From: Hyphomicrobium sp. D-2
Lineage (GTDB): Bacteria; Pseudomonadota; Alphaproteobacteria; Rhizobiales; Hyphomicrobiaceae
Direction of reading: 5' to 3'
Assembly (NCBI RefSeq): GCF_029872155.1
Contig: NZ_JARXLA010000008.1
Location: forward strand, 932,501-996,500
DNA length: 64,000 nucleotides
The notes under the pieces were generated by a model. It was not told the DNA's origin. It worked only from the letters and a program-made list of their open reading frames with translations, and did not search any database. The position numbers and the translations under genes were made by a program. Shown one piece after another: positions 52,894 to 64,000 of the stretch (positions within the stretch are counted from its first letter, which is position 1; each line of letters opens with the position of its first letter).

Positions 52894-53847
52894 ATGATCA
52901 TGGTGCTAACGGGCGCTCGCCACTTTTCCATCAGCATGCCAGCCAAGATGCAGGCCGCGTTTGCAACGCTTTTGCTGCTGACGATCGTTGCGGTTTGCGC
53001 AGGCGCGCCGTCTGCCTTTGCGCAGTCCGGAGGGGGCTATGGTGCCTATTCAGGCGGACGCACTGGCAACGATGCTTACGTGCCGCCTGCGGATGACGCT
53101 TATGTCCCGCCGCAGGATGGCTATGATCCGCCTCCCGGCGGTGCTGCGGGGCAGGCGCCCTACCGTCCAGGTGGCGCCTATTCCGAGGGCGATGGCTATC
53201 GACGCTATGATGGCGAACCTGGTGCCCGCCGCGATGGGCCGCCGCCAGGACCCCCACCGGCCTATGGCGACACCGATCCGGGCGGTTATGGCGAACCCTA
53301 CCGTGCGCCCGGCGAACTCTATGAGCCGCCACCACGCTACGCCGATGACGGCCCGCGGGGTGGGGGCGGCTATTCGCAGGATGAGATCGTCGAGGCTGGC
53401 GGTCGCTTTTTTGGCTCGGTTACCAAGGGGCTTGCCAGCGTAATCGAGCACGCCTTCCGCAAATCCGGCCGGCCCAACGGCTATATTCTCGGTAACGACG
53501 GGGGTGGCGCTTTCATCGCCGGCCTGCGCTATGGCGAGGGCACGCTCTACACCAAGGATGCGGGCACGCACCGGGTATATTGGCAAGGTCCGTCAATCGG
53601 TTATGACTTCGGCGGCGAAGGCTCCAAGACCATGGTGCTGGTTTACAACCTGCAGCATCCCGATCAAATCTATGAGCGTTATGGCGGTGTGCAGGGCTCG
53701 GCGTATGTCGTCGGCGGCGTGGGCATCCAGTATCAGACCCATGGCAATGTAACCTTGGCGCCGATCCGTTCGGGAATCGGCCTCCGCCTAGGTGCCAATG
53801 TTGGATATTTGAAGTATACCCGCTCTCCGACGTGGAATCCGTTCTGA
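52894..53847 (+). CDS. DUF1134 secreted protein with Gly/Pro/Tyr-rich region
   Basis: An exported protein of about 317 residues. A signal peptide (FATLLLLTIVAVCAGAPSAFA) starts near residue 19, so a start at 52948 is also possible. Residues 45-160 are Gly/Pro/Tyr/Asp-rich (GAYSGGRTGNDAYVPP), likely disordered. Residues 165-317 are DUF1134: YSQDEIVEAGGRFFGSVTKG, GRPNGYILGNDGGGAFIAGL, YGEGTLYTKDAG and the end GLRLGANVGYLKYTRSPTWN. Function unknown; the family is confined to alphaproteobacteria and close groups as far as I know. Confidence 0.88.
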   Translation: MIMVLTGARHFSISMPAKMQAAFATLLLLTIVAVCAGAPSAFAQSGGGYGAYSGGRTGNDAYVPPADDAYVPPQDGYDPPPGGAAGQAPYRPGGAYSEGDGYRRYDGEPGARRDGPPPGPPPAYGDTDPGGYGEPYRAPGELYEPPPRYADDGPRGGGGYSQDEIVEAGGRFFGSVTKGLASVIEHAFRKSGRPNGYILGNDGGGAFIAGLRYGEGTLYTKDAGTHRVYWQGPSIGYDFGGEGSKTMVLVYNLQHPDQIYERYGGVQGSAYVVGGVGIQYQTHGNVTLAPIRSGIGLRLGANVGYLKYTRSPTWNPF

Positions 53848-56503: not shown

Positions 56504-56964
56504 AACGTACCTCCTATGGCGGGCGCATGAAACCATGCGCGCGGAACATGCTCTGATGCCCTTGGCATGTCGAGAAATCTATCGGGGCTCATGGTTGCCA
56601 GTGAGGCCATACAGGGGTTTGGATAGATTTAACGTTAATCCGTTGCGTCATCCGTCGCTGCGCGTCCGGTTGATGTCCGGGCTCGCATCCGCACGCCGTC
56701 GTCGTACCGAGAACTGTCGCTGACAGACGAACAGTTTCAACAGCGGATCGGGTGCAATGATGCCATCCGCTCTGGGATGACCGTTCAGGAATGGCGCGCC
56801 CGGCCCGTGCAAAAAATCTGCCCTGAGATCGAGCTGCAACACTAGCCGCCATGGCGTTGCCGCCATTGTAGACTCCTCTCCGCACCCAACCTGAACTCGT
56901 TCCAATGGGGGCGTGCCGGGGTGCCGTTCTAAAAAATATTGTGGCGTTGAAGGGGGAGTGCGGC
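56504..56964. other. Divergent intergenic region
   Basis: About 460 bases between the bactofilin and metallophosphoesterase genes. Open frames here lack ribosome binding sites and have random composition. No terminator or repeat recognised. Confidence 0.5.
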
Positions 56965-58908
56965 ATGGCCGGCGGCTCGGGGGAAATTGATATCAAAGCA
57001 CTGCCGAAGATGGTGCGTTGGTACAGTCCTGCGCATCTTGTCAGCACCGGCTGGCGTTCGGTCGTGTCGGAGATATTCGGTCAGTACGCTGACCAGCGCA
57101 TCATGCAGGCAACCATCGACGGCTTCGCGCCGGAGGTGATGAAGTCTGTCATCAGCCGCTACGACTATGCCGATCTGCGCCAGCTTAGTGACGGCAACTC
57201 GGTGTGGTTCGACTATGTGGCCGACCTTGGCGACGGGTTCGATTCCACCTACGCCGTCGCGTCGCTCATCAGTGCGCCGCAACTGACGCTGGAGGGCGCG
57301 GGCACGTTGCCGGCACCGAAGCTGCTCATCATGGGCGGCGACCAAGTTTATCCATTCCCCACCCGTCAGGCCTATCGCGAGCGTTTCGCGATGCCGTATG
57401 CCACCGCGCTACCGCCCGCTGCCGATGGTGGCTGGCGCCGCAAGCTGTTTGTGCTGCCGGGCAATCACGACTGGTACGACGGTCTCAGCTCGTTCGATCA
57501 CATGTTCTGTAAGGCGCGGTTTGGCCACGCCAGCGAGAACCGCATCGGCGGCTGGCTCTGTCCGCAGCACCGCAGCTATTTCGCGATCCGTCTGCCGCAC
57601 AACTGGTGGATCTGGGGCGCCGACATCCAGCTGGCCCAGTATCTCGACGCCGGCCAGATCCTCTATTTCGAAAGCGTCGCCGAGGAAATGAAGCGCCATC
57701 CGACCGAGGCGCCGAAGGTCATCCTCTGCACGCCGGAGCCGAGCTGGAACTACGACCGCGACGAAAGCCTGCAGGGCGAAGACAATCTCGCCACCATCAC
57801 CAAGATCGCCACCGATGCCGGCGCGCGCATTCCGGCCGTGCTGTCGGGCGATCTGCATCACTACAGCCGCTTCCATTCGGCGGAAACGGGCACCAGCTTC
57901 TTCACGTCCGGCGGCGGCGGTGCGTACTTCTCGCCCACCCATTATCTGAAAGACAAGCGCACCATCACCACCGCCACCGGTGAATCGATCGAGCTCGATC
58001 TGCGCTGCAAGATGAAAGACGGCGAGCGCACAGACGAGCCTTCGTGCTGGCCCTCGCGCGGCACCTGCCGCCGCCTCAGTCTGTCGACGCTCGGCTTCCC
58101 GTTCCGCAACTACGGTTATTCGGTTGCGCTTGGTTTCATCTACTGGGTCATCATCTGGATGTTCTCGACCACGCCCTACGGCGGCAAGACCGTGGGCGAG
58201 ACGCTACTTTATGATCCCGAGTTCCACTGGTGGCCCGGCATCTTCCTGCTGGCACCGCTGGCGGCGGCAACCAACGTCGTGCTTGGCATATGGTGTCTCG
58301 GTCTGTGGGTGGTGCTGTACTTTTATTCCGACAGCGAGTGGGGCGGAAAGGCAAAGGCCGCGCTGGGCACGCTGCACTGGCTGGCGCACATCGCGATGAT
58401 GATCGCGCTCTACTATGCCGTGTCCTACTTCTCGTTCTGGATGGTGGAAACCGCGTGGCCGCAGGCGCGTGAAGTGTTGCAGAATCTTGATCTGCGTACA
58501 TCGCCCGATGTCCGCGAGCTGCTGCGCACCATCGTTATCTTCCCGCTGACGATGATCTTCATCGGCGGCATAGCGGCGGGCTTTGTGTGGGGTGCCTATC
58601 TCACGATCTGCTGTTTCATGGGGCTGCATTGCGACCAGGCGTTCGCTTCAATGGCGATCCCTGACTTCAAGAATTTCCTGCGCATCAAGGTGGAGCCGAA
58701 CAAGGTCACGATCTACCCGATCGGGCTGCGACGTGCGCCACGGCGCTGGGCGTGGAAGCACGCCAAGGATCGCGGCCTGGGAGATTCCAGCGGGCCGTCG
58801 ATCGTGACGTCGCGGCCGATGCGTCCCGAGCTGATCGAGAGCCCGATTGAAATTCGTGTCGGCGATTTGAAGCGACCGCGTCCGCGCGGGTCATCATTTG
58901 GCGTTTGA
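56965..58908 (+). CDS. Membrane metallophosphoesterase, unknown substrate
   Basis: A large protein with calcineurin-like metal motifs: DLGDGFDST, LLIMGGDQVYPF, VLPGNHDWYDGLSS and LSGDLHHYSRF give D, GGD, GNHD and GDxHH. From about residue 395 there are four to five membrane segments (VALGFIYWVIIWMF, FLLAPLAAATNVVLGIWCLG, AHIAMMIALYYAVSYFSFW, IVIFPLTMIFIGGIAAGFVW), then a charged tail with IVTSRPMRPELIESPI. I know no named bacterial family with this exact layout. The ribosome site GGGGGAG supports ATG 56965; ATG 56905 would add 20 residues. The two GMC genes follow on the same strand, so a shared membrane-lipid task is possible. Confidence 0.8.
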   Translation: MAGGSGEIDIKALPKMVRWYSPAHLVSTGWRSVVSEIFGQYADQRIMQATIDGFAPEVMKSVISRYDYADLRQLSDGNSVWFDYVADLGDGFDSTYAVASLISAPQLTLEGAGTLPAPKLLIMGGDQVYPFPTRQAYRERFAMPYATALPPAADGGWRRKLFVLPGNHDWYDGLSSFDHMFCKARFGHASENRIGGWLCPQHRSYFAIRLPHNWWIWGADIQLAQYLDAGQILYFESVAEEMKRHPTEAPKVILCTPEPSWNYDRDESLQGEDNLATITKIATDAGARIPAVLSGDLHHYSRFHSAETGTSFFTSGGGGAYFSPTHYLKDKRTITTATGESIELDLRCKMKDGERTDEPSCWPSRGTCRRLSLSTLGFPFRNYGYSVALGFIYWVIIWMFSTTPYGGKTVGETLLYDPEFHWWPGIFLLAPLAAATNVVLGIWCLGLWVVLYFYSDSEWGGKAKAALGTLHWLAHIAMMIALYYAVSYFSFWMVETAWPQAREVLQNLDLRTSPDVRELLRTIVIFPLTMIFIGGIAAGFVWGAYLTICCFMGLHCDQAFASMAIPDFKNFLRIKVEPNKVTIYPIGLRRAPRRWAWKHAKDRGLGDSSGPSIVTSRPMRPELIESPIEIRVGDLKRPRPRGSSFGV

Positions 58909-58974
58909 TTTGTTTGTTCCGTGCGGGTGCCGCCAATAGGTTCCGCGCTGCCGATCTGGGGAGAGTAAAGGCGT

Positions 58975-60798
58975 ATGCAGGGGCGGCTTTCGATGCCCGC
59001 TTCCAGGCTCAGGGCGCACTACGACGTTGTCGTGGTTGGCTCCGGGTACGGCGGAGGCGTTGCAGCGTCGCGTCTGGCGCGCTGTGGCCGCAAGGTCGCC
59101 GTGCTGGAGCGAGGGCGCGAGTTTCTGCCCGGCGATTTCCCCGATGGCGTCGCGGCCGCCAGCGCCGAAACGCAGCTCACCGGCACGCACGGCAGGATCG
59201 GCTCACCGCTGGCGCTGTTCGATGTCCGTGTCGGTAAGGATGTCGATGTGCTGATGGGCTGCGGTCTGGGCGGCACGTCGCTCATCAACGCCAATGTGTG
59301 CCTGATGCCCGATGCGCGCGTGTTTCAGGACGAAGCATGGCCGTTGCCGCTGCGCACCGACCGCCTGCTGGCGGAAGGCTTCGTGCGGGCGCGCCATATG
59401 CTGCGGCCTGAACCGTCGGCAAAGGCGCAAAGCTATCAGAAGGTGGCGGCACTGGATCTGGCGGCAAAAGCTTTCGACCGCAACGTGAAGCCCATTCCGT
59501 TGCATGTCGCCTTCAAGTCCGGCCCGAATGCTGCGGGTGTTGAGCAGCCCGCATGCACGGATTGCGGCGATTGCTGCGGCGGCTGCAATGTCGGCGCCAA
59601 GACGACAACCGCCTGCACCTACATCGCCGATGCGGCTGCCTTCGGTGCGGAGGTTTTTACCGGCGTTCAGGTGTTGTCGCTGGCGAAGGACGAGCACGAC
59701 GGCTGGCGCGTGTCGGCAACGCCGACGGACGCCGATGCCGCGCGCGGCCAGCAGTATTTCATCACCGCCGAAGTGGTGGTGCTGGCTGCTGGTACGCTCG
59801 GCTCAACAGAAATCCTGCTCCGCTCGCAGCAGCAGCACGGGCTGGCTGTTTCGCCATGGCTGGGGCATCGCTTCACGTCGAACGGCGATGCGATCGCGTT
59901 TTCCTATAACAACGACATTCCGGTGAATGGCATCGGTATCGGTCATCCGCCGAAGGCGCAGGTGGCTCCCGTTGGCCAGGCGGTAAACGCGTTGATCGAC
60001 ATGCGCGATACGGCGGATGTGCGCGATGGCATCGCGATTTGCGAATGTGCGCTGCCCAGCTCGTTCGCGGCTGGCTTGCCCGCCATGCTGGCTCCAACAG
60101 CGGCAATCTTTGGCGAGCGTGAGAAGCGTACGTCGGCGGTGCAACTTGACGGGTTGCAGAACACCGTTGCCAGTCTCGTCAATGGCGCTTACAGCGGCGC
60201 TGTCCACAACTCGCAGACATTTCTGGCCGTCGGTCACGATGCCGGTGACGGTGTCATGCATCTTTATGATGATCGTCTCACGATAGAATGGGATGGTGCC
60301 CTCAATCAGGCCGCGTTCCAGAGTATCGATCAGGCGTTGCGCCGCGCCAGCTACGCCACGGGCGGCACCTATATCCGCAATCCGGTGTCGCAGAAGGCGT
60401 TGGGTGGCAATCCCATGACGGTGCATCCGCTCGGCGGCTGTGTGATGGGAGAGAGTTCCGCGACCGGCGTCGTCAATCACAAGGGGCAGGTGTTCGACGC
60501 CAGCGTCGAAGCCAATCCCGACGCGATCCATCGCGGGCTTTATGTCTGCGATGGCGCGGTTGTTCCGTGCCCGCTGGGCATACATCCCTTGCTGACGATC
60601 ACGGCGCTGGCCGAGCGCGCGATGATTTTGATGGCAGAAGAATACGGTTGGGAAATGCGCGAGGAAAGCGCGCCGATGCAGGTGCCATCGCCAGATGCGG
60701 CGACGGTTGCAGCGGTGGCTATCGCGGCGCCTTCCTCTCAGCGTCCCTGGTTTGCGCGCTGGCTTAGACGCGCGCCGCAACCGGCCAATGGAGAATAA
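58975..60798 (+). CDS. GMC-family oxidoreductase, cholesterol-oxidase-like
   Basis: A 607-residue flavin oxidoreductase. The FAD loop is VVVVGSGYGGGVAASRLARC, and the second dinucleotide-linked stretch MGCGLGGTSLINANVCL fits the GMC signature. A Cys cluster (ACTDCGDCCGGCNVGAK) follows; I recall similar clusters in ChoD and long-chain alcohol oxidases. The end MTVHPLGGCVMG and GIHPLLTITALAERAM carry the active-site His and the FAD-side Pro-Leu-Leu. The substrate is likely a hydrophobic alcohol or sterol-like lipid. Spacing of two bases to the next gene shows translational coupling. Confidence 0.88.
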   Translation: MQGRLSMPASRLRAHYDVVVVGSGYGGGVAASRLARCGRKVAVLERGREFLPGDFPDGVAAASAETQLTGTHGRIGSPLALFDVRVGKDVDVLMGCGLGGTSLINANVCLMPDARVFQDEAWPLPLRTDRLLAEGFVRARHMLRPEPSAKAQSYQKVAALDLAAKAFDRNVKPIPLHVAFKSGPNAAGVEQPACTDCGDCCGGCNVGAKTTTACTYIADAAAFGAEVFTGVQVLSLAKDEHDGWRVSATPTDADAARGQQYFITAEVVVLAAGTLGSTEILLRSQQQHGLAVSPWLGHRFTSNGDAIAFSYNNDIPVNGIGIGHPPKAQVAPVGQAVNALIDMRDTADVRDGIAICECALPSSFAAGLPAMLAPTAAIFGEREKRTSAVQLDGLQNTVASLVNGAYSGAVHNSQTFLAVGHDAGDGVMHLYDDRLTIEWDGALNQAAFQSIDQALRRASYATGGTYIRNPVSQKALGGNPMTVHPLGGCVMGESSATGVVNHKGQVFDASVEANPDAIHRGLYVCDGAVVPCPLGIHPLLTITALAERAMILMAEEYGWEMREESAPMQVPSPDAATVAAVAIAAPSSQRPWFARWLRRAPQPANGE

Positions 60799-60800
60799 TA

Positions 60801-63800
60801 ATGCGGCGCCTGTCCAAGTCTGTTGCTGATCTGAAGCTGCGTTATGACGTCGTCGTTGTCGGCTCCGGCTATGGCGGCGGCGTTACCGCCTCGCGCATGG
60901 CGCGAGCCGGCAAGCGCGTTGCAGTGCTGGAACGCGGACAGGAGTTTGCCATCGGCGATTTCCCCGACCGCATGATCGAGGCGCAGGAGCAGTTTCAGGT
61001 CTCGCGCGAAGGTCAGCGCGTCTCGGGTTCGCCCTCGGCGCTGTATGATCTGCGGCTCGGCAAGGACATCCACGTGTTCGTCGGTTGCGGCCTCGGTGGC
61101 GGTTCGCTGGTGAACGCCAACGTCTCGCTGCCGCCCGATCCGCGCGTGTGGGACGACCCCGTCTGGCCGCCGGAGCTGGCGCAGGATCAGACCCGGCAGG
61201 AGGGCTTCGCGCGCGCGATGGATGTGCTGCGTCCGGTGCCGTACGAAGGGCCGAAGCTGGACAAGCTGCACGCTCTTGGCATCAGCGGCAACGCGTTCCA
61301 CCGAGACATCACGCGCCCGCCGATCAACGTAACGCTGAAGAAGCAGGTGAATTACGCGGGCGTTGAACAGCCCGCATGCACGCTGTGCGGTGACTGCTGT
61401 TCGGGCTGCAACGTCGGCGCCAAAAACACCGTGCAGGTGACATACATCGCCGATGCGTTTCAGCATGGCGCTGAGATCTTCACCGAAATGCGCGTTACGC
61501 ATGTGCTGCCGGAGCGCGGCCGCTGGCGCATTTTCTTCGAAGCAATCGGCCACGACCGCGAAAAGTTTTCCGCCGCTGATCAGTCGATCACCGCCGATGT
61601 CGTTGTGCTCGCTGCGGGTACGCTCGGCTCGACCGAAATCCTGTTGCGTTCGCGTCAGGAGGGGCTTGCGGTTTCCGATCAGCTCGGCGAACGCTTCACC
61701 GGCAACGGCGATGTGCTGGCCTTCGCCTACAACAACGATGTGCGCATCAACGGTATCGGTGTGGGCGATCCGCCGGTGGCCGATACCGGTCCGGTTGGTC
61801 CGTGCATCTCCGGCATGATCGATCTGCGTAACACCGAGAACCTTGAAGACGGCATCGTCATTGAGGAAGGCTCGCTTCCATCCGCCCTCGCGCCCATCCT
61901 GCCCGCACTGCTGACCATCGGCGGCGACAAGCTGGGCGAGGATACCGATCGCGGCGTCGTCGATTTTCTGGCGGAGCGCAAACGCCGTCGCGAAAGTCTG
62001 CTGTTCGGCGCCTATCAGGGCGCGGTCAACAACACGCAGACCTATCTCGTCATGAGCCATGATGATGGCAAGGGCCGCATCGCGCTTGATAACGGACGGC
62101 TGAAGCTGGTGTGGCCCAAGGTGGCGCAACAGTCGATTTTCGACAAGGTCGATCGCACGCTGCGCCGCGCCACGCTGGCGACGGGCGGCAACTACATCCG
62201 CAATCCGCTCACCGAAACAATTCTTGGCAACAACCTCATCACTGTGCATCCGCTCGGCGGCTGTGCGATGGGGCACGACCGCACCAACGGCGTTGTCAAT
62301 CACAAGTGCCAGGTGTTCGATGCGCGGCCCGATGCGCCCGCCAACGCGGTGCACGCCGGCCTTTATGTGTGCGATGGCTCGGTCATTCCGCGCCCGCTCG
62401 GCGTCAATCCGTTGCTGACGATCACGGCACTGTCCGAACGCGCGATGATCCATCTGGCGAAGGATCGCGGCTGGGATTTCTCCGATGCGCAGCGTCACGA
62501 TCTGCCGTTGCTGGTTGCCGCGCCGCAGGGGCGTGAAACAACCCGCCCGGCCGGCGTCGAGTTCACCGAGCGTATGGCGGGCTTCGTCTCGCCGGCCGTT
62601 GCATTGCCCCATGAAACGGCAGCACGGCGCGGCAAGGAAGAAGGCCATCCGTGTAATTTCACGCTCACGGTCATCATCGATGACGTTGATCGTTTCGTCG
62701 CTGACCCTCAGCGTTCGGGCCGCATCGTCGGTACGGTGGAATGCTCGGCGCTCTCGCCCGAACCGCTGGAAATATTCGACGGTAAATTCAATCTGATGCG
62801 CGTTGACGAAGCCGCCGTCGAAACCAAACGTTTCGACTATCGCTTCTCGCTCGCAGCGCGCGATGGTTCGGAATATTATTTCGATGGCCACAAGGTCGTG
62901 CGCTCCGATGCAACTCTCGATCTGTGGCGCGATACAACGCGTCTCAACATCGACATTGCGCGCGGTGGCCAGGGTCAGTTCGGTCCGCTGGCGCGGGGCA
63001 TGCTGGAGATCGCACCGTCCGACTTCTACGTGCAGATGCAGACGCTGCGTGGAACGGGCGGCGCCAACACTGCCGATCGCATGCGCGCAGTCGGCAAGTT
63101 TGGGCGCTTCTTCAGTCGCGAGCTGTTCGACACCTACGGCGGCGTGCTGGCACGCACCGGCCGTTATGACGCGCTCAACCCGCGCAAGAAACGCACCCTG
63201 CGCGTGCCCGAACCGGAAGTGCATCTGGTGCGTACGGAAGACGGCAAAACGCTGAAGCTCACGCGTTATCGCGGCGGCGCCAAAGGTCCGGTGGTGCTGA
63301 TGCATGGTCTGGGCGTCTCCAGCCTCATCTTCTCCATCGACACCATCGAGACCAACCTGCTCGAATATCTCGTTGCCGAGGGGTACGACTGCTGGCTGCT
63401 CGACTATCGCGCCAGTGTCGATCTGCCGTATGCGCATGAACTGTGGAGCGCCGATGATGTGGCGATCCGCGATTATCCGGCAGCGCTGGCGAAGGTGCGC
63501 GGCATCACGCGTGCGCCGACGGTGCAGGTCATCGCCCATTGCTTCGGCGCCACCACCTTCACGATGTCGATGCTGGCGGGGCTTGAGGGCGTGCGCTCAG
63601 CTGTGATTTCGCAGATCTCTACCGACTACGTGGTGCCGTTCTTCCCGCAGCGTATGCTGGCTTATCTGCGTGCGCCGGAGTTGTTTGAGGCCATCGGCAT
63701 CGATGTTGTGAATGCGCGTGCCACCACGGCCGATCCGCTGCGTGAACGTGTGCTGGATAAAGTTCTGCAGATGATCGTGCCGGTGCCCCGTTCCGAGCGC

Positions 63801-64000
63801 ACGCGCGAAGCCACCAGCAATCGCATCACGGCGCTGTACGGCAGGCTTTACAACCTTGCGCAGTTGAACGACGCGACGATCACGTCAGGGCTGGCGGAGA
63901 TGTTCGGTGAAGCGAATATCGAGGCCTTCCGTCACCTCGCGCTGCTGACGCGCGAAGGCAAGCTGCTGGATGCTGAAGGCCGCGATGTTTACCTGCCAAA
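60801..64000 (+). CDS. GMC oxidoreductase fused to alpha/beta hydrolase, 3' end outside window
   Basis: A very long frame, open to the window edge (at least 1066 residues). Residues 1-560 are a second GMC oxidoreductase: VVVVGSGYGGGVTASRMARA, VGCGLGGGSLVNANVSL, Cys cluster ACTLCGDCCSGCNVGAK, VHPLGGCAMGHD, GVNPLLTITALSERAM. A middle part (570-800) of strand-rich text has no name known to me (FTLTVIIDDVDRFVADPQRS, FDYRFSLAARDGSEYYFDGH). From about 810 an alpha/beta hydrolase begins: PVVLMHGLGVSSLIF and the nucleophile elbow VIAHCFGATTF with Cys (residue 914) where Ser is usual. ATG 60801 has GGAG seven bases before it. Oxidation and ester or acyl transfer on the same lipid would be a natural joint task. 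Confidence 0.88.
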   Translation, partial: MRRLSKSVADLKLRYDVVVVGSGYGGGVTASRMARAGKRVAVLERGQEFAIGDFPDRMIEAQEQFQVSREGQRVSGSPSALYDLRLGKDIHVFVGCGLGGGSLVNANVSLPPDPRVWDDPVWPPELAQDQTRQEGFARAMDVLRPVPYEGPKLDKLHALGISGNAFHRDITRPPINVTLKKQVNYAGVEQPACTLCGDCCSGCNVGAKNTVQVTYIADAFQHGAEIFTEMRVTHVLPERGRWRIFFEAIGHDREKFSAADQSITADVVVLAAGTLGSTEILLRSRQEGLAVSDQLGERFTGNGDVLAFAYNNDVRINGIGVGDPPVADTGPVGPCISGMIDLRNTENLEDGIVIEEGSLPSALAPILPALLTIGGDKLGEDTDRGVVDFLAERKRRRESLLFGAYQGAVNNTQTYLVMSHDDGKGRIALDNGRLKLVWPKVAQQSIFDKVDRTLRRATLATGGNYIRNPLTETILGNNLITVHPLGGCAMGHDRTNGVVNHKCQVFDARPDAPANAVHAGLYVCDGSVIPRPLGVNPLLTITALSERAMIHLAKDRGWDFSDAQRHDLPLLVAAPQGRETTRPAGVEFTERMAGFVSPAVALPHETAARRGKEEGHPCNFTLTVIIDDVDRFVADPQRSGRIVGTVECSALSPEPLEIFDGKFNLMRVDEAAVETKRFDYRFSLAARDGSEYYFDGHKVVRSDATLDLWRDTTRLNIDIARGGQGQFGPLARGMLEIAPSDFYVQMQTLRGTGGANTADRMRAVGKFGRFFSRELFDTYGGVLARTGRYDALNPRKKRTLRVPEPEVHLVRTEDGKTLKLTRYRGGAKGPVVLMHGLGVSSLIFSIDTIETNLLEYLVAEGYDCWLLDYRASVDLPYAHELWSADDVAIRDYPAALAKVRGITRAPTVQVIAHCFGATTFTMSMLAGLEGVRSAVISQISTDYVVPFFPQRMLAYLRAPELFEAIGIDVVNARATTADPLRERVLDKVLQMIVPVPRSERTREATSNRITALYGRLYNLAQLNDATITSGLAEMFGEANIEAFRHLALLTREGKLLDAEGRDVYLP

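Follow-up and report, generated by a model that had tools for sequence, protein, structure and literature searches.

The three-gene locus

The window examined here, 64,000 nucleotides in length, is the stretch C8:932501–996500 of a 3.79 Mb Hyphomicrobium genome. According to the list of open reading frames (ORFs), its last part, positions 56965–64000, carries three genes, all on the plus strand: one for a membrane metallophosphoesterase (MPE), one for a GMC oxidoreductase (GMC1) and a third (gene 3) for a fusion of a second GMC oxidoreductase (GMC2), an unclassified domain (MID) and an alpha/beta hydrolase (ABH). The trio is conserved and, as far as searched, undescribed, and its parts belong to known families. 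Functional linkage of the three genes is, in our judgement, highly likely, and it is very probable that together they make up a single enzyme unit not described before. The coordinates are listed in Table 1.

Table 1. Genes, domains and motifs of the trio, in window coordinates.
Feature	Position	Strand	Description	Basis
MPE	56965..58908	+	metallophosphoesterase, 647 amino acids (aa), purple-acid-phosphatase-like fold, apparent inserted four-segment membrane domain	ORF, PF00149, AlphaFold2 (AF2) model, fold match, hydrophobic segments
MPE motifs	57223–57237; 57334–57351; 57457–57483; 57718–57729; 57847–57864	+	DLGDG; GGDQVY; PGNHDWYDG; VILC; GDLHHY	
GMC1	58975..60798	+	flavin adenine dinucleotide (FAD) GMC oxidoreductase, 607 aa, His484/His537 pair (HPLGGC, GIHPLLT)	ORF, Pfam, motif check
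GMC1 CxxCxxCxxxC	59554..59586	+	predicted iron–sulphur (Fe-S) ligands	
Gene 3 (GMC2-MID-ABH fusion)	60801..64000 in window	+	1144 aa in full	
GMC2 domain	60801..62570	+	His483/Asn536 pair; predicted Fe-S ligands 61377–61409	
MID	62571..63200	+	about 210 aa; mostly strands in low-confidence model	
ABH	63201..64000	+	acid-lipase-like; Cys914 in AHCFG (63534–63548); Asn1083 and His1117 beyond window end	

An earlier sequence-only reading of this DNA, made without database searches, had described three co-directional, closely spaced genes with a gap of two bases between the GMC genes, and the coordinates and the single strand agree with it; MPE and GMC1 are separated by 66 bases. The ATG start of MPE is preceded, six bases upstream, by GGGGGAG at 56952–56958, and a further in-frame ATG lies at 56905. 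Gene 3 overruns the window end by 235 bases, to C8:996735. In Pfam searches, MPE matched PF00149 (25.0 bits, cut-off 21.5), and GMC1 and gene 3 both matched PF00732 and PF05199 above the gathering score, which places them in the GMC superfamily. The window-cut gene 3 also matched PF12697 (26.6 bits, cut-off 26.3), in line with the fusion to an alpha/beta hydrolase recognised earlier. The two GMC proteins had been called paralogues; they are 52% identical over 576 positions and both contain the Cys cluster and HPLGGC. The phosphoesterase, described as membrane-embedded, has four hydrophobic segments within residues 384–541. Its nearest named match, from Hyphomicrobium sulfonivorans S1, is 98% identical. 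The dN/dS ratios calculated from computed dN and dS against the same strain are 0.03 for MPE, 0.09 for GMC1 and 0.03 for gene 3; all three genes are under purifying selection.

Recurrence of the trio and its fusions

The distribution of the genes was studied in several genome samples. A match was regarded as strong above 100 bits, a threshold chosen after the lists were seen, and the Fisher tests assume independence of genomes or genera, an assumption that does not hold. Among 60 relatives (the window genome included), MPE was found in 20 and the MID-ABH fusion in 12, and 11 of the 12 genomes with the fusion also have MPE (p 5e-6 by genome, 7e-4 by genus). In the order sample of 249 genomes, MPE is present in all seven genomes with a strong MID-ABH match, versus 12 of the 242 others (p 5e-9); by genus, MPE accompanies MID-ABH in 5/5 genera (p 1e-5, a count that still includes the genus of G283). 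The weak rows dropped from this sample were G283 (20.6 bits) for MPE, and G324 (77.6 bits), G250, G384, G397 and G458 for MID-ABH. G324 carries a PhoD gene beside its GMC-ABH gene and has no MPE match, and counting it would change the result to 7/8. In the phylum sample, also of 249 genomes, strong MPE was found in three genomes, strong MID-ABH in four and both in three; weak rows were dropped for MPE (G486, G492, G576, G613) and for MID-ABH (G324, G467, G508, G511, G580, G622, G646). The family of G566 has MPE in 1 of 148 genomes, and that genome also has the fusion. In the class sample of 190 genomes, where the fusion was not sought, two have MPE, one of which is the window genome.

The order of the genes is conserved as well. 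The window's genus is represented by eight genomes. Six of them carry the three genes in this order, and neither MPE nor MID-ABH was found in the remaining two, G004 and G007. In G025, from another genus in the data set, the order is the same and MPE and GMC1 overlap by 4 bases as judged by the longest ORFs. All seven flanking genes tested recur in all five other loci of the genus (L069–L073), and none of the seven is present in L074, L084, L089 and L090, which are loci of other genera keeping trio genes or the GMC pair. The order of the trio is kept while the flanks change. A set of 53 GMC and 39 MPE rows was compiled from loci fetched because of these genes, so that it is not a random sample; hits were at least 380 aa for GMC and at least 300 aa for MPE, and a few are partial. 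In a scripted count, 19 of the 39 MPE rows have a family GMC no more than 3 kb away, and one more, G036, adjoins a GMC cut by the contig end. In six genomes outside the genus, MPE and GMC overlap by 8–26 bases or are spaced by 13–114 bases, again by the longest ORFs. The sequence-only reading had taken the three genes for one functional unit and named rare co-occurrence elsewhere as the outcome that would speak against it; the genes were found together far above chance.

Across fusions and REPLACEMENTS, the oxidase-hydrolase is repeatedly accompanied by phosphoesterases, which come from three families; no other observation argues as strongly for a dephosphorylation step in the process. On one contig of a metagenome-assembled genome (MAG), L112, a single frame of 1402 aa contains a full membrane MPE joined to a full GMC; the MPE-GMC fusion is known from this contig only, and G270:C346 is the same one. 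Ensifer has a GMC-ABH-PhoD fusion of 1910 aa (PhoD 71 bits), and in G324 the same PhoD is encoded separately, 31 bases downstream of the GMC-ABH gene (73 bits). In Variovorax, the gene for a 546-aa PF00149 protein overlaps the start of GMC-MID-ABH by 4 bases. In BLASTP comparisons with MPE, the Variovorax protein gave E 0.26, the PhoD of G324 0.04 and the PhoD part of the Ensifer protein 0.002 over 40 aa, and because of these values the alternative phosphoesterases are best described as belonging to different families, not as unrelated. The PhoD-type version (L125:809–4822; L175:12386–16465) is divergent from a gene for a large adenylate/guanylate cyclase-AAA protein, identified by Pfam in L175 and by eye in Ensifer.

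Other arrangements were also found. Azospirillum has MPE followed after 34 bases by GMC-MID-ABH, and Cupriavidus has MPE followed by GMC, beside a molybdenum hydroxylase. Arthrobacter has GMC-MID, MPE, a separate ABH, an acetoacetate-decarboxylase-like protein and a patatin; its record is unannotated, and the frame of its MPE (L121) is lost after about 400 aa. In Pseudonocardia, GMC is followed by a separate small MID gene and is divergent from ABH. The GMC-MID-ABH fusion is present in Leptospira and Bernardetia. A di-haem cytochrome gene lies 3′ of the fusion in G566 (L195:10209–12140; 193 bits to the di-haem cytochrome c peroxidase family, cut-off 150; part of the protein is RoxA-like), which fits electron export in that genome only. 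The viral collection contained no fusion and one contig with MPE, L130. On this contig, a relative of MPE stands beside an ORF that appears integrase-like by eye, a possible mobile copy. In L165, L166 and L170, a Glu/Leu-type dehydrogenase gene lies upstream of MPE on the other strand (Pfam for L165, by eye for the others).

In the window genome, gene 3 is followed by convergent genes for YbaK-type tRNA editing, FdhD and formate dehydrogenase; the further lipid genes downstream that the sequence-only reading had named as possible support for a pathway do not stand there, and a pathway continuing in this direction was rejected. A bactofilin gene lies upstream on the minus strand. It forms a block with a coiled-coil protein and the envelope integrity protein EipA (246 bits, 52894–53847), and the block recurs in five other loci of the genus. 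A promoter scan of the locus found none, and shuffled sequences averaged 2.0, which makes the scan uninformative on the transcription unit. The gene 3 search found one more GMC of the family in the window genome, at C8:589242–590867; this third paralogue (C8:589236–590927, or L008:9236–10927) shares the Cys motif and lies near genes which, as named by eye, encode a FabH-like ketosynthase, a GDSL-type hydrolase and a TonB receptor.

Predicted properties of the domains

The AF2 model of MPE has a pLDDT of 76.8 and a pTM of 0.82. It matches the purple acid phosphatase 2bq8 with a VIA Z of 23.9 and an rmsd of 2.9 over 266 residues (16% identity, model range 76–637). Foldseek matched the model to 1ute (E 6.3e-8), with PhoD and SMPDL3 as further matches, and comparison of MPE with the PDB by sequence gave nothing useful. 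As modelled, MPE has the purple-acid-phosphatase fold. The aligned range 76–637 spans the hydrophobic segments at 384–541, so the membrane part appears to interrupt the catalytic fold. The motifs are nearly invariant among the MPE rows: DxGDG[FW] in 39/39, GGD[QE]xY in 35/39, PGNHDWYDG in 37/39 and G[DN]xHxY in 38/39. The metal-ligand motifs of purple acid phosphatases are D, GDxxY, GNH, VxxH and GHxH. MPE has VILC for VxxH and GDxH for GHxH; at two positions, which we take to be those of the second-metal histidines, it carries Cys or other residues, and Asp. The metal use of MPE may differ, because these two histidines are replaced.

The closest solved relatives of the GMC domains are cholesterol oxidases (profile E 4e-60). 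The NCBIfam cholesterol oxidase model NF058674 gave 163.9 bits for GMC1 and 167.8 bits for the window-cut gene 3, far below its cut-off of 850. The cysteines C193, C199 and C203 are invariant in 15/15 aligned GMC rows; among the 53 GMC rows, Cx5Cx3C is present in all, CxxCxxCxxxC in 51 and HP[LI]GG in 51. In a profile alignment, no Cys of cholesterol oxidase falls at the cluster site. The glucose dehydrogenase of Burkholderia cepacia (BcGDH) is reported to bind a 3Fe-4S cluster through Cys212, Cys218 and Cys222 (PMC6719666); this spacing, Cys-x5-Cys-x3-Cys, is that of the GMC family in 53/53 rows. Profile positions 13–288 match residues 7–301 of 6a2u_B (whole chain E 4.8e-22), and a short profile of the Cys region matches ferredoxin cluster motifs (best E 0.014). 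The spacing like that of BcGDH, the absence of the cysteines from cholesterol oxidase and the ferredoxin-motif match lead us to predict an Fe-S cluster in the GMC domains and dehydrogenase activity.

The two GMC proteins differ in their catalytic residues. The known catalytic pairs of GMC enzymes, as given in the same report, are His/His and His/Asn (PMC6719666). GMC2 has the His/Asn pair, as in cholesterol oxidase, and GMC1 has His/His instead. In the GMC1 clade, His/His was found in 11/11 rows; in the rows labelled as fused where the motif was found, the second residue is Asn, except in L176 (Ala). GMC1 and GMC2 probably catalyse different oxidations, since their pairs differ.

ABH is closest by sequence to gastric lipase (E 3.5e-19) and lysosomal acid lipase/cholesteryl ester hydrolase (E 5e-16) among solved structures. 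Acid lipases have a Ser nucleophile and a triad Asp; in the alignment to 1hlg, ABH has Cys and Asn at these positions. The nucleophile elbow is HCxG in 14/14 sequences, including the separate actinobacterial ABHs, and the position of the triad acid is Asn in 12/12. A weak match to polyhydroxyalkanoate (PHA) synthases was also obtained (E 1.6e-6). PHA synthases use a Cys nucleophile and have Asp in the triad. From these residues, we infer that ABH may perform acyl-transfer or thioester chemistry.

MID had no match in Pfam, NCBIfam or the PDB sequences. A MID profile built without the patatin rows matched the fusions of Leptospira, G566, Variovorax and G270 and the patatin of G542 (141 bits); the same profile found no match in the patatin of Arthrobacter. 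In G542 (L197:7094–10723), the patatin with its C-terminal MID is accompanied by an acetoacetate-decarboxylase-like gene and a separate ABH. G684, G698 and G707 have a 537-aa ORF with a MID-like stretch near a separate ABH.

Proposed function, alternatives and comparison with known systems

The unit most likely acts on a membrane lipid. MPE, held at the membrane, would remove a phosphoester and leave a free hydroxyl. GMC1 and GMC2, as FAD enzymes related to cholesterol oxidase and bearing a putative Fe-S site, would oxidise two different hydroxyls, with the electrons passing through the Fe-S cluster to a respiratory carrier and not to O2. ABH, fused to GMC2, would take the oxidised product onto its cysteine, and the acyl part could then be transferred or cleaved; MID would join ABH to GMC2, perhaps by lipid binding. 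Because ABH is related to acid lipase and the GMCs to cholesterol oxidase, the substrate may be a bulky, hydrophobic compound, either an alcohol or an ester. We give even chances to the proposal that the trio is one unit processing a membrane-associated lipid by these successive steps, and for the detailed chemistry the balance is likewise level. The sequence-only reading had proposed that a hydrophobic molecule at the membrane is dephosphorylated, oxidised and hydrolysed. Such a substrate is plausible and the first two steps were retained, with the Cys cluster now predicted to be an Fe-S site and the catalytic pairs of the two GMCs distinguished; the hydrolytic step is unsafe, because Ser and Asp are replaced in ABH by Cys and Asn.

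A number of observations weigh against this proposal. No family GMC of at least 380 aa lies within 3 kb of MPE in 20 of the 39 rows, including all 13 of a clade of long MPEs, so that MPE also works without these GMCs. The GMC1-GMC2 pair stands without an adjacent MPE in G026 and G020, MPE and the fusion are on different contigs in G566, and no MPE was found in two genomes with the fusion, G024 (73% complete) and G542, or in the stretches of Leptospira and Bernardetia that were read. The proteins of Ensifer and G324 have no MID by profile. In the window genome, the neighbours examined beside the trio include no lipid gene and none for an electron acceptor or a hitchhiker subunit. For the Cys region of the GMC profile, the matches to 6a2u_B 209–299 (E 0.7) and fructose dehydrogenase 213–299 (E 0.1) are weak. 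With Cys and Asn in ABH and altered ligands in the phosphatase, activity could be changed or lost, and the Fe-S geometry, MID and ABH are not inspectable because the gene 3 model is poor (pLDDT 43.3).

The long MPEs, of about 730 aa and more, are those of L076, L078–L083, L085–L087, L111, L167 and L171, some of them near contig ends; in L111, a GMC lies about 4 kb away on the other strand. This clade probably has another role.

Four other explanations were considered. The trio might remodel a polycyclic or isoprenoid lipid of the cell itself, of the hopanoid or polyprenyl type, and not break a lipid down, which we regard as rather unlikely. A membrane phosphatase with soluble-looking partners, a cholesterol-oxidase-like GMC suited to polycyclic alcohols and the fixed place beside EipA and bactofilin within the genus agree with remodelling, but these envelope neighbours are not kept in other genera, and the sporadic distribution (in the phylum sample, three genomes with strong MPE and four with the fusion) is unlike that of a core membrane pathway.

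Catabolism of sterols or steryl esters from eukaryotes, with the GMCs as cholesterol oxidases, ABH as a steryl-ester hydrolase and MPE removing a phosphorylated head group, is unlikely. The nearest solved relatives of the GMCs and ABH speak for it, but the scores of 164 and 168 bits against the NF058674 cut-off, the Cys cluster missing in cholesterol oxidase and the Cys and Asn of ABH all weigh against it; on the same three grounds, a plain cholesterol oxidase with a lipase was rejected. In addition, no sterol-degradation gene was found among the neighbours examined, and no secretion signal was noticed by eye.

It is still less likely that MPE is a regulator or a degenerate phosphatase and that the enzyme unit is the GMC-ABH part only. 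The replaced second-metal histidines and the GMC pairs without an adjacent MPE would be accounted for in this way, but the DxGDG, GDxxY and GNHD motifs are nearly invariant, and PhoD or another PF00149 protein takes the same place, which points to the activity and not to the protein. Chance neighbourhood, or shared horizontal transfer without shared chemistry, is hardly credible despite the patchy distribution and the absence of a GMC alongside about half of the MPE rows, given fusions in two combinations, overlapping genes and varied arrangements in several families and two phyla; chance neighbourhood was rejected on the fusions, the overlaps and the co-occurrence. A known anti-phage defence system was also rejected: PADLOC gave one 13-bit match (E 0.0094), to residues 18–46 of GMC1, and nothing else.

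The stepwise processing of a membrane lipid by the trio may be put in a broader form, which we offer as a tentative and rather improbable extension. In this form, the undescribed system would be shared by Pseudomonadota and, apparently, Actinomycetota, and its fused oxidase-hydrolase would extend to Spirochaetota and Bacteroidota. The phosphatase, from any of three families, would feed a single polypeptide that unites a flavin/Fe-S dehydrogenase with a cysteine acyltransferase. This polypeptide would oxidise a lipid alcohol, catch its acyl part as a thioester on the ABH cysteine and move it to an acceptor, with the electrons going to respiration instead of O2.

The sequence-only reading knew of no described pathway with this gene set, and full-text literature searches likewise listed no paper on it, judged by title or the opening of the abstract, which is weak evidence of novelty since most subscription journals lie outside their coverage. 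Among the matches listed for the H. sulfonivorans literature, none was about the trio genes by title. The annotated plasmid records seen use generic names only (metallophosphoesterase, alpha/beta fold hydrolase, GMC oxidoreductase). The evidence unites these generically named proteins into one unit with testable chemistry.

Several known systems resemble parts of the trio. The catalytic fold of MPE is like that of purple acid phosphatases, PhoD, GpdQ and SMPDL3, and the GDxxY and GNHD motifs are common to them; MPE differs in the membrane segments inside the span of the fold and in the two replaced histidines. The gastric and lysosomal acid lipases (1hlg, 6v7n) are the closest relatives of ABH, but they have HSQG and Asp where the ABHs have HCxG and Asn. 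PHA synthases (9knj, 6k3c) have a Cys nucleophile in common with ABH; the similarity is weak and membership is not claimed. The neighbouring genes for polyvinyl alcohol (PVA) dehydrogenase and oxidised-PVA hydrolase provide a system that oxidises and then cleaves, with other enzyme families and another substrate than the trio.

The FAD glucose dehydrogenase of B. cepacia (6a2u) and fructose dehydrogenase (7w2j) are likewise GMC enzymes, the former with its 3Fe-4S cluster on Cys-x5-Cys-x3-Cys, but their similarity to the trio GMCs is much weaker than that of cholesterol oxidase (82 vs 207 bits). The hitchhiker and multihaem cytochrome subunits of BcGDH have no counterpart among the neighbours examined beside the trio; G566 has its adjoining di-haem cytochrome. 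The GMC-type cholesterol oxidases (1coy, 4u2l; NF058674) are the closest solved relatives and have the His/Asn pair of GMC2, but they lack Cys at the cluster site, the trio GMCs score low with the NCBIfam model, and GMC1 has His/His. To our knowledge, cholesterol oxidase has no fused ABH. The reading by nearest relatives, cholesterol oxidase plus lipase, probably fails on three counts: an Fe-S cluster is predicted, the hydrolase has Cys and Asn, and the two GMCs differ in their catalytic pairs. If the proposal is true, the trio would represent a new bacterial route for oxidising a phosphorylated lipid, would place Fe-S enzymes inside the cholesterol-oxidase branch and would provide a setting for finding the function of MID.

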